Shown here: one piece after another, positions 22,845 through 25,994 of the stretch
How the letters are laid out: each line of letters opens with the position of its first letter
How positions within the stretch are numbered: position 1 is the stretch's first letter
Assembly: GCF_029626175.1 (NCBI RefSeq)
Contig: NZ_JARUBM010000002.1
Location: 2,931,001 to 2,995,000 of the forward strand
Direction of reading: 5' to 3'
Length of the DNA: 64,000 bases
Source of the DNA: Micromonospora sp. WMMD1082
GTDB taxonomy: Bacteria; Actinomycetota; Actinomycetes; Mycobacteriales; Micromonosporaceae
The notes under the pieces: model-generated
Seen by the model: only the letters and a program-made list of their open reading frames with translations
What the model was told of the DNA's origin: nothing
Database searches by the model: none
Position numbers and translations under genes: made by a program

Positions 22845-22952
22845 ATGACTGAGCGGAGCATAGAGGCTGGCTCCGGCGTGGCGGCGATCCCGCGTGCCGG
22901 CGGCGTCAACGAGCGACTCACCGTCACCGTGCGGTGGTGCCGCGATGACTGA
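22845..22952 (+). CDS. Possible 35-codon upstream small gene
   Basis: An ATG at 22845 opens 35 codons that begin MTERSIEAGSG and stop with a TGA at 22950-22952, overlapping the first codons of the dehydrogenase gene. Its start (ATGACTGAGCGG) nearly copies that gene's own start (ATGACTGAACGG), hinting at a small duplication. It could couple translation to the downstream gene or be chance. Confidence 0.25.
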   Translation: MTERSIEAGSGVAAIPRAGGVNERLTVTVRWCRDD

Positions 22953-23835
22953 ACGGTTCGTGGTGGTGGGGGGCGGCACGATGGGCCTCGGTATCGCGTA
23001 CGTGGCGGCCGGCAGCGGTCACGCGGTGGAGCTGGTCGAGGTCGACCGGGAACGCGGCGACGCGGCGGTACGCCGGCTCGCCCAGCTCTGGGAGCGGGCC
23101 GTGCAGCGCGGTCGGCTCACCGCCGAGCAGGCCGCCGCCAACCGCGCGCTGATCACCCTGCGGGCGGGGCTCGCCGAGGTCGCCGAGGCGCCGGACGTGA
23201 TCGTGGAGGCGGTACCGGAACGACCCGACCTCAAGCGGGCCGTGCTGGCCGAGGCGGAGGCGCTGCGACCGGCGCTGCTGGGCAGCAACACCTCCAGCAT
23301 CCCGATCGCCGAACTCGCGGCGGAGCTGGCGCGTCCGGAGCGCTTCTGCGGGCTGCACTTCTTCAACCCGGTCTGGGCGATGGCGCTGCTGGAGATCGTG
23401 GTCGGGCCGGCCACCGCGCCGGGGACCACGGACGCGGCCGTCGCGCTCGCCGGCCGGCTGGGCAAGGACCCCGTCGTGGTACGCGACATGCCGGGCTTCG
23501 CCACGTCGCGGCTCGGCGTGACCCTCGGACTGGAGGCGATCCGGATGCTCGCCGACGGGGTGGCCAGCCCCGCCGACATCGACAAGGCAATGGTGCTCGG
23601 CTACCGGCACCCCGTCGGGCCGCTGGAACTGACCGACCTGGTCGGCCTGGACGTGCGGCTCGACATCGCGCGCACCCTCCAGGCCGCGTACGGGGACCGG
23701 TTCGCCCCGCCACCGCTGCTGGTGGAACTGGTCGCCGCCGGCCGGCTGGGCAAGAAGTCCGGGCACGGCTTCTACCGGTGGACCGACGGCGTCCGCTCGG
23801 ACGGCACCGGGCCGGCGGCGGGGGCGGCACGATGA
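22945..23835 (+). CDS. 3-hydroxyacyl-CoA dehydrogenase
   Basis: NAD-dependent oxidation of 3-hydroxyacyl-CoA in beta-oxidation or aromatic acid breakdown. The 296-residue protein has the Rossmann motif VVGGGTMGLGIAYVAA, VEAVPERPDLKRAV, SNTSSIPIAELA, the HFFNPVWAMALLEIV block with the catalytic His, and a C-terminal domain ending LGKKSGHGFYRW. The ATG at 22945 begins MTERFVVVGGG. It overlaps the next gene (enoyl-CoA hydratase) by an ATGA, so the two make consecutive enzymes of one pathway. Confidence 0.93.
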   Translation: MTERFVVVGGGTMGLGIAYVAAGSGHAVELVEVDRERGDAAVRRLAQLWERAVQRGRLTAEQAAANRALITLRAGLAEVAEAPDVIVEAVPERPDLKRAVLAEAEALRPALLGSNTSSIPIAELAAELARPERFCGLHFFNPVWAMALLEIVVGPATAPGTTDAAVALAGRLGKDPVVVRDMPGFATSRLGVTLGLEAIRMLADGVASPADIDKAMVLGYRHPVGPLELTDLVGLDVRLDIARTLQAAYGDRFAPPPLLVELVAAGRLGKKSGHGFYRWTDGVRSDGTGPAAGAAR

Positions 23836-24575
23836 GCGGGCTGCGCGTCGAGGAGCGGCCGGACCGGCTGGTGGTCACGCTGGACCGGCCGGAGAAGCGC
23901 AACGCCATCGACACCGATCTGATCGCCGCGCTGCACGAGGTCTGCGCCGAACTGGAGGCCCGCCCCCGGATGCTGCTGCTGACCGGCGGCACCGACGGGA
24001 TCTTCGCCGGCGGTGCCGACATCGCCCAGCTGCGCGAGCGGGGCCGGTTGGACGCGCTGGCCGCGATCAACTCGGCGGCCTTCGCCCGGATCCGGGCGCT
24101 GCCGATGCCGACCGTGGCGGCGATCGACGGCCCGGCGCTGGGCGGCGGCGCCGAGTTGGCGTACGCCTGCGATCTTCGGGTCTGCTCGGCGCGGGCGGTC
24201 TTCGGCCAGCCGGAGGTGCGGCTCGGCATCCTGGCCGGCGCCGGCGCGACCCACCGGCTGCCGGCGCTGGTCGGCGAGACCATCGCCAAGGAGCTGTTGT
24301 TCACCGGCCGACGGGTGGACGCCGCGGAGGCGCTGCGGATCGGGCTGGTCAACCGGGTGGTGGCGACCCCGGACGAGCTGATGCCCGCCGCGCACGGCCT
24401 GATCGACGAGATGGCCAAGGGTTCGGCGCTGGCGCTGCGGCTGACCAAACTCGCCGTCGACGCCCCGGCCGCCGCCCATCCGCACCTGGACCTGGTCAGT
24501 CAGGCGGTGCTCTTCACCGACGAGGAGAAGCACCGCCGGATGACCGAGTTCCTCCAGCGGCGGCGCGGGAGCTGA
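23832..24575 (+). CDS. Enoyl-CoA hydratase/isomerase family protein
   Basis: Crotonase-fold protein of 247 residues. Motifs: LVVTLDRPEKRNAID, FAGGADIAQL (oxyanion loop), and AAIDGPALGGGAELAYACDLRV followed by GQPEVRLGILAGAGATHRL with the catalytic-Glu region (PEV and AGAGAT). The ATG at 23832 overlaps the dehydrogenase stop. Together they form a beta-oxidation pair; an exact substrate chain length cannot be read. A near-perfect bidirectional hairpin follows. Confidence 0.92.
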   Translation: MSGLRVEERPDRLVVTLDRPEKRNAIDTDLIAALHEVCAELEARPRMLLLTGGTDGIFAGGADIAQLRERGRLDALAAINSAAFARIRALPMPTVAAIDGPALGGGAELAYACDLRVCSARAVFGQPEVRLGILAGAGATHRLPALVGETIAKELLFTGRRVDAAEALRIGLVNRVVATPDELMPAAHGLIDEMAKGSALALRLTKLAVDAPAAAHPHLDLVSQAVLFTDEEKHRRMTEFLQRRRGS

Positions 24576-24635: not shown

Positions 24636-25994
24636 TCAGCGGGCCAGCGCCGCCAGCGGCACCTCGGCGTCGGCGAGCGCCCGGATCACCGCGGCGGACT
24701 CGCCGAAGCCGATGATCAGCACCGCGTCGGCACCGAAGTCCTTGATCTGCTTCGCGCCGTCGCTGAAGTTGATCGGCGCGGCCTCGGCGTCCTCCCCGGG
24801 CTCATAGCCGAGCAGCTTCACCTTGTCACCACCGAAACCGGCCCGCTCCAGCTCCCCCCGGACGATGTCCTGGAGGCCCTCGCCGTAGGAGTCCTGACGC
24901 GCCACGATGGCGATCTTCTGCGGGCCGTCCCGCAGGATCACGTCGGCCAGCGCGCGCCCCTGGAGGCCGTCCGGCGGGGCCGTACGGAAGTAGAGACCCT
25001 TGTCGTCCGCCGTGGTCAGGCTCGCGGCGGTGTTCGACGGGGAGAACAGGACAATGCCCGCCTTCACCACGTCGGGCAGCACGGCGGTGGAGATCCCGGA
25101 GCCGCCGGCACCGATGATCACGTGGACCCCGGCCTCGATGTGACTGGCCACCGTCGCCTTGGCGACCGTGGGGTTGGTGCCGTCGTCGCCGTCGATCCAG
25201 ACCACGTCCTCGCCCAGCACGCCGCCGGCCGCGTTGATCTCCTTGATCGCCAGCGCCGCACCGGCCGCCATCGGTGGGTTGGCCAGCGCCAGGTCACCGG
25301 TCTTGGGCAGCAGGCCGCCCAGCACGAGCGGGGCGCCGCTCTCCGGATCGGTGAAGGTGCCGGACTGCGGCCTACCCGCCGGCGGCTTCTTGGTGCTGGC
25401 CGCGTTGTCGTCACCGGCGCCGACGAACTCCATCTTGGCCTCGTTGAGCTGCTGGCCGTCGAAGTGAAGCGTGGCGTAACTGGCGGTGGCCGGCTCGCCC
25501 GCGTCGGTGAAGCCGGCCCGGGTGATCGAGGCGCTGCGGTACTCGATGTCGGTTCCCTCGCGGGCCAGGCGCAGGCACTGGTTCACCGTGGCGCAGCGGG
25601 TGCCACCGTTGGTGACGCCGACGATCTGCTTGGCGATGGCCGCGGAATCGGTCGTCCCGGCGAGCTGCGCCGCGAGCGCGCTGATCACCACCGCGTCGTA
25701 CGCCTCGGCGGCGTAGAGGTAGTCGCTCAGCCTCGGGTCCACGGACCGTAGCCGGTTCTTGAAGTCCTCCGGCAGCGGGGTGAGCGGCGTGGTGCCCTTC
25801 ATCCCGTCGACCAGGCCGGCACGGTCCTCCAACTCGTCCGGGTACGAGTTGAGCATGTTGCCGTCCGTGCCGTAGAGACGCACCTGTTGGGCGGTAGCCT
25901 CCTCGGGCTGGTCATCCCCGCATGCGCTGGTGGCGAGCAGGACCGTGGCGCAGACAGCCAGGATGGCCGTCCGCGAGCCGCGTGACATGTGCAT
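24636..25994 (-). CDS. Circularly permuted branched-chain-amino-acid-type solute-binding lipoprotein
   Basis: A 452-residue lipoprotein (signal peptide 1-24, lipidated Cys25 in LLATSAC) of the Peripla_BP_6/LivJ family, but with the two halves of the fold swapped. Residues about 38-190 hold what is normally the C-terminal part (VRLYGTDGN, AYDAVVISALAAQLAGTTD, GGTRCATVNQC, GFTDAGEPATASYATLHFDG). A Pro/Thr/Lys-rich linker follows (about 192-220). Residues about 222-452 hold the normal N-terminal part (LGGLLPKTGDLA, INAAGGVLGEDVVWIDGDDG, FSPSNTAASL, YFRTAPPDGLQGR) and stop at VIRALADAEVPL, where the family continues into the LYGTDGN-like strand. The ATG at 25994 has GAGGAAGG upstream. No permease or ATPase gene is adjacent, so it is an orphan component. 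Confidence 0.9.
   Translation of the reverse strand: MHMSRGSRTAILAVCATVLLATSACGDDQPEEATAQQVRLYGTDGNMLNSYPDELEDRAGLVDGMKGTTPLTPLPEDFKNRLRSVDPRLSDYLYAAEAYDAVVISALAAQLAGTTDSAAIAKQIVGVTNGGTRCATVNQCLRLAREGTDIEYRSASITRAGFTDAGEPATASYATLHFDGQQLNEAKMEFVGAGDDNAASTKKPPAGRPQSGTFTDPESGAPLVLGGLLPKTGDLALANPPMAAGAALAIKEINAAGGVLGEDVVWIDGDDGTNPTVAKATVASHIEAGVHVIIGAGGSGISTAVLPDVVKAGIVLFSPSNTAASLTTADDKGLYFRTAPPDGLQGRALADVILRDGPQKIAIVARQDSYGEGLQDIVRGELERAGFGGDKVKLLGYEPGEDAEAAPINFSDGAKQIKDFGADAVLIIGFGESAAVIRALADAEVPLAALAR

Follow-up and report, generated by a model that had tools for sequence, protein, structure and literature searches.

Background

The closest described counterpart of the protein reported here is TpMglB-2 (Tp0684), a naturally permuted type I solute-binding protein (SBP) lipoprotein in which the first three strands of the N-lobe have been relocated to the C-terminus, and which still binds glucose and closes (PMC4990184). 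It was proposed as a Type Ic, or Cluster Bc, SBP, and the available part of that report raises the importance of the attachment point for transport and leaves it open (PMC4990184). A permuted type I SBP is therefore already known as a kind. A literature search for natural permutation in a substrate-binding protein, branched-chain amino acid transport or Peripla_BP_6 context found no paper. An earlier note on this DNA, which knew of no described permuted member of the family, agrees for the Liv family with that search, which gave none either, and was too broad for type I SBPs at large, TpMglB-2 having been described (PMC4990184). The placement in the Liv family, the break points, the recurrence of the swap and its polymorphism within one genus were not found in print by our searches.

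To our knowledge, most natural circular permutations on record happened once and long ago, and no close unpermuted counterpart accompanies them. We report a permuted SBP gene from the window, the 64-kb stretch of Micromonospora DNA that was analysed, and its relatives in Actinomycetota. Its permuted order, the conservation of that order, the synteny and several changes of order among relatives were obtained by computation. The joint explanation that we consider quite probable is a permuted, lipid-anchored SBP of the LivJ/HAAT group whose permuted order arose repeatedly and in place, and which is an orphan in Micromonosporaceae.

A putative solute-binding lipoprotein with its halves swapped

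The gene, annotated on the basis of its open reading frame and conserved order as the CDS of a circularly permuted solute-binding lipoprotein, occupies 24636..25994 on the minus strand, as do all of its parts given below. The frame is intact, as had been claimed: it starts with ATG and encodes 452 aa, with zero internal stops before the terminal one. The N-terminus is signal-like and, as read from the sequence, carries a putative lipobox signal peptide (residues 1-25; 25920..25994), whose Cys25 is invariant among 21 aligned permuted proteins; it is followed by a short post-Cys linker (residues 26-36; 25887..25919) in which pLDDT is below 50 up to residue 35. The old C-terminal half now comes first in the chain (residues 37-195; 25410..25886; delimited by a profile alignment of residues 37-192). 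Near its beginning lies the break-point strand region VRLYGTDGN (residues 38-46; 25857..25883), located by alignments and the structural model, and its Asp44 and Asn46 are invariant in 30 aligned first halves. A linker between the old C- and N-termini (residues ~196-221; 25332..25409; from the model and profile alignments) leads into the old N-terminal half, which now comes last (residues 222-447; 24654..25331), and the sequence closes with a short new C-terminal tail (residues 448-452 and the stop; 24636..24653).

That the product is a circularly permuted SBP of the LivJ/Peripla_BP_6 type is confirmed. Residues 224-446, in the second half, match positions 3-216 of the 343 in Peripla_BP_6 at 114.5 bits, above the curated cut-off of 31.7 for this family of LivJ/HAAT type I SBPs, and re-ordering the protein in silico yields a single Peripla_BP_6 stretch, 3-311, at 124.8 bits; the first half by itself finds in Pfam a weak match to positions 229-321 of 353 in ANF_receptor (E 0.066). 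The earlier note had read the LivJ/Peripla_BP_6 halves as reversed and had proposed aligning them separately. Treated in this way, each matches the opposite half of the family. In blastp both are found inside normal ORFs in swapped order, and against a normal-order profile of 489 columns residues 37-192 fall on the C-terminal end (columns 334-485; 43% identity, E 1.8e-55) and residues 216-451 on the N-terminal part (columns 108-355; 38% identity, E 3.9e-89). The normal protein L185 likewise matches the window in two swapped pieces (tblastn), with its residues 77-290 at 25331-24675 and its residues 303-438 at 25877-25461. The best solved relatives align by their N-terminal part to the permuted protein from about residue 221 onward. 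The top solved LivJ-type relatives align to a normal family member in normal order. Together the two halves cover one normal protein, with no part occurring twice. The protein thus lacks the canonical type I, or Cluster B, chain order, which makes it a permuted offshoot of the LivJ/HAAT family and no canonical type I member; by model and profile alignments it has the circularly permuted type I fold that is the trait of Type Ic / Cluster Bc.

Conservation and genomic neighbourhood

Among the best 120 of 2753 protein matches, length varies between 444 and 453 aa, query coverage between 94 and 100% and identity between 72 and 88%. All 160 genomes of the window's genus (160/160) contain a match at E <= 1.8e-113, and conservation of the permuted order across the genus excludes chance and assembly error. 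The survey of the family found some match in 348 of 354 genomes, and in 29 of the 44 genera at least one genome had a best match under 1e-90, the per-genus genome counts being lower bounds. When 22 genomes were re-examined, end-to-end (permuted) matches were present in genera g2, g6, g7, g9, g14, g18, g29, g33, g38, g39 and g42, and the order was normal wherever both halves match in g4, g16, g40 and g41. A look for the same order elsewhere in Micromonosporaceae, another suggestion made beforehand, therefore finds it in other genera, but in some genera normal-order relatives alone were seen. Over 172 compared loci, 174 ORFs contained both halves, 104 of them permuted and 70 normal, with duplicates counted. 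Two Micromonospora assemblies carry the permuted gene in two overlapping frames, colinear at G261:C76:12845-14178 and similarly arranged at L073:2605-3986, through a frameshift or a sequencing error.

Searches of the 64-kb window with tblastn gave no match to liv genes, and no transporter family was recognised among the ten window ORFs scanned, which comprise acyl-CoA enzymes and others, four of them without a family. The earlier remark that no transporter genes are adjacent agrees with both results, and the window gene has no livFGHM importer beside it. Other permuted loci of Micromonosporaceae resemble it in this respect: a livH/livM match lies nearby in 0/13 (covering 13 of the 41 named loci) and in 0/9 further ones, among which L230 is probably the same record as L065, and L235 has a 26% ABC-ATPase-like match with livH/livM absent. 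Normal-order genes of the same family stand beside liv genes in 9/9 cases. The absence does not extend beyond Micromonosporaceae: one or more liv genes adjoin 22 of the 23 permuted loci from outside that family, the remaining locus being a 3.6-kb contig, and 9 of the 10 normal loci compared alongside them also have liv neighbours. Pfam searches of ten neighbours of permuted and normal genes returned BPD_transp_2 permeases, ABC ATPases and response regulators with ANTAR domains; for the ANTAR regulator at the liv locus we use what we take to be its name, pdtaR, and the polA-like neighbour there was recognised by eye.

Genomes G341, G102 and G316 hold, in addition to the permuted gene, a normal-order SBP in a liv operon. 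The genome from which the window derives has liv-type permease matches elsewhere and weakly matching SBP paralogs (L002-L004); at C2:4871897 it has an ANTAR-type regulator match with L002 and a permease match just behind.

Two genes at 22894-24575 of the window, for a 3-hydroxyacyl-CoA dehydrogenase and an enoyl-CoA hydratase, converge on the SBP gene, and ORFs resembling them occur in 30 and 42 compared loci. It is possible that these acyl-CoA genes are linked to the ligand of the SBP.

The neighbourhood leaves room for a different occupation of the Micromonosporaceae protein, as a stand-alone surface receptor or scavenger and not a component of transport, a proposal that we regard as somewhat doubtful. 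The lack of livH/livM matches at 13/13 and 9/9 permuted loci speaks for it, as does the retention of a normal-order SBP in the liv operon of G341, G102 and G316; yet the window's own genome has liv-type permease matches at other places, and SBPs can work with distant permeases. Our preferred explanation keeps the protein as an orphan in this family, where it would either feed a distant Liv-type permease or act as a receptor; permuted proteins encoded beside liv genes would most likely serve that importer.

Both orders in one genus and probable repeated origin of the swap

The distribution survey covered Actinomycetota. End-to-end (permuted) matches occur in at least 8 of 396 genomes in a phylum sample, with any match in 280, and in at least 11 of 394 in a class sample, with any match in 326. 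Genus g317 contains both orders. There, at least 82 of 147 genomes match at E <= 1e-20; nine of these 82 match end to end (E <= 6.6e-178, one cut by a contig edge), and in the remaining 73 the best match is no stronger than E 4e-90. Of the 30 best-matching loci in this genus 21 have the normal order and nine the permuted one, and the latter group together as a single clade (100/99) amid normal relatives.

For phylogenetic trees the halves were aligned separately and then set in normal register, after removal of near-identical Micromonospora, Microbacterium and freshwater rows and several long-branch rows. Tree group g1 of the permuted genes comes from genus g317 in family f7, which we infer from the named relative Aeromicrobium to be Nocardioidaceae; group g2 contains L087, L144, L145 and L150-153; group g3 is L117 and L118; group g4 is of Acidimicrobiia type; and group g5 unites Micromonosporaceae with the Geodermatophilaceae loci L074 and L143, its sisters L129/L155 being normal. 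The 86-row tree (34 permuted, 52 normal) contains five order changes, all five forced by well-supported branches, and the 114- and 80-row trees contain five each, four of them forced.

Records titled Bifidobacterium breve (MAGs; L076, L079, L090, L093, L094 and L105) also carry these SBP genes. On the 114-row tree the neighbours of L076, L079 and L105 are freshwater and Acidimicrobiia-type actinobacteria, and that of L090, L093 and L094 is an Actinomycetales MAG, so these labels are probably wrong.

AU tests reject a single permuted clade, and with it a single origin, on all columns (p 2e-98 with 86 rows; p 1.7e-4 in another test) and on each half alone (p 0.0048 and 0.0007; 83 rows, without L087_1056, L236 and L233). 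On the 80-row set, one clade is also rejected for g3+g4+g5 (p 5e-5), g1+g2+g5 (p 4e-17), g2+g5 (p 0.009) and g1+g5 (p 4e-5), and g1+g2 is rejected when nine g1 members and two g2 rows are used (p 0.0012). With a single g1 member in larger trees, g1+g2 is not rejected (p 0.18, 0.14); nor is g4+g5 (p 0.38), and g3+g4 is not clearly so (p 0.31, 0.048). Because g1, g2 and g5 reject one another pairwise, the tests made imply at least three origins, and the best tree has five. In groups 1, 2 and 5 the YxxDGN strand follows the new N-terminus and the chain stops just short of the strand's former position; in groups 3 and 4 the chain begins behind this strand and has it at its C-terminal end. Two break points, one on either side of the strand, agree with separate events.

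Were there instead one ancient permutation, the normal genes interspersed on the tree would have to have regained their order in some lineages by a later re-permutation, or conversion by neighbouring normal genes would have to mask the kinship of the permuted ones. The pairs g4+g5 and g3+g4, not clearly rejected as clades, give this some latitude, and tandem permuted-normal pairs such as L087 would permit conversion. We nevertheless judge it unlikely: the AU tests reject one clade for the full set of columns and for either half, two break points exist, reversion requires a second exact rearrangement, and an alignment of the normal family member to the top solved LivJ-type relatives runs in normal order. 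Repeated origin is the reading that we retain, the permutation having probably arisen more than once in Actinomycetota, in place, at the SBP gene beside a livFGHM importer.

The middle joint of the permuted g317 genes consists of the old C-terminal end and then a spacer ending like a normal post-Cys linker. Such a joint would result if two tandem copies fused and their outer halves were lost, and equally if the C-half moved into the post-Cys linker. The likeliest route would be a tandem copy, in which the C-half of one gene was joined to the next gene's linker and N-half while the outer halves disappeared. Tandem pairs of normal-order SBP genes occur at L088, L095, L096, L104 and L108, and no fused tandem intermediate was seen among the loci compared. 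At L087:435-3989 an ANTAR-type regulator-like gene, a permuted SBP and a normal-order SBP lie in tandem, convergent to liv genes; this is the sole permuted-normal tandem seen, and its two SBPs are old paralogs on the tree, not fresh duplicates.

One may speculate that the SBP gene of one conserved liv locus is a permutation hot spot in Actinomycetota, with 4-5 independent in-place events that cut the chain to either side of a single strand and include one so young that a genus is still polymorphic for it, and that the products were kept since a shift of the lipid anchor from lobe I to lobe II alters the way in which the SBP reaches its importer or closes on it; we hold this conjecture loosely.

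Predicted structure and position of the tether

The earlier note had also suggested a structure prediction. AlphaFold2 models the whole protein as a single fold with good confidence (pLDDT 86.8, pTM 0.86), and residues 1-220 of 3ip5 are matched there by residues 221-447. The VIA rows for the whole model cover mainly residues 218-451, and the first half was placed on the end of the LivJ chain by profile alignment together with the whole model. Modelled alone, the first half is poor (pLDDT 58, pTM 0.53), as expected for half a fold. Both parts of a two-lobed fold are present, as judged from the profile alignment of the halves and the pTM of the whole, and the model indicates that the protein very probably adopts the usual two-lobed flytrap fold. 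Independent domains are ruled out by the tiling of the halves, the one fold of the whole and the poor model of the first half.

Very probably an amino-acid-like ligand would be bound in the usual cleft. In an alignment counted by eye, Ser299, Thr322 and Tyr370 fall on positions 79, 102 and 150 of 2lbp, presumably ligand-contact positions of LBP; these candidate positions are conserved, as are Asp44 and Asn46 of the break-point strand. A literature search on ligand residues found no paper. The ligand, the docking, the effect of the tether and the duplication route are what we infer.

The old termini would be joined by the linker of about 25-30 residues and the new ones opened beside the lobe-II strand YxxDGN, so that the permutation would put the lipid tether on lobe II and no longer on lobe I. 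Homology places the new N-terminus in lobe II, with one strand and a helix between it and the second lobe crossing, given what we take to be the type I SBP topology; the proposal that it was tethered at the hinge gives way to a tether point in lobe II. The lipobox Cys is also kept in 18 of 18 aligned normal relatives. The swap therefore alters the place of the tether and not its presence, and anchoring alone fails to explain it, these normal relatives being lipoproteins too.

Linkers of about 20-30 residues could permit an exchange in which the halves pair between two chains and no closed monomer forms, but such a domain-swapped dimer is very improbable, as the single-chain prediction reaches pTM 0.86 and the permuted TpMglB-2 is reported as monomeric in the available part of its description (PMC4990184). 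Two half-proteins in one frame, or a decayed gene, might be suspected from the weakness of the first half alone in Pfam, and we give this hardly any credence, since the halves add up to one normal protein and repeat nothing, the whole folds confidently and the first half alone poorly, and motifs and frame are kept over the genus.

Comparison with known systems

The window protein resembles LivJ/LivK-type proteins (HAAT; 3ip5, 4n0q, 2lbp) in its family, its predicted two-lobed fold and its lipoprotein-like N-terminus, and its relatives resemble them further in having liv neighbours. Unlike them, it has its order swapped, its tether, by homology, at lobe II and not lobe I, and its old termini linked. 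The normal-order SBPs of liv loci (L185, L092, L221), flanked by the ANTAR regulator (pdtaR-like) and the polA-like gene, share their genomic place with permuted genes and rank among the normal-order proteins most closely related to the permuted groups, but have the canonical N-to-C order.

TpMglB-2, a lipoprotein, and the window protein, a putative one, are both permuted type I SBPs in which the two-lobed fold is kept, as predicted here for the latter. As far as the available part of its description extends, TpMglB-2 is a glucose-binding MglB relative and the window protein is LivJ-type, and their break points differ, that of the window protein lying beside the YxxDGN strand and that of TpMglB-2 elsewhere (PMC4990184). 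The same part describes no normal/permuted polymorphism within a genus for TpMglB-2 (PMC4990184), whereas both orders occur here in g317. In that genus they occupy one genomic place beside the same importer genes, the context of the permuted gene having been read from one genome (L173). Across related bacteria the swap has seemingly been repeated several times, so that nature itself provides an experiment in rewiring a protein. Both orders at the same place and repeated swaps together allow direct tests of the origin of a permutation, of the tandem-duplication route and of the role of the attachment point, and permuted SBPs may serve as biosensor scaffolds.
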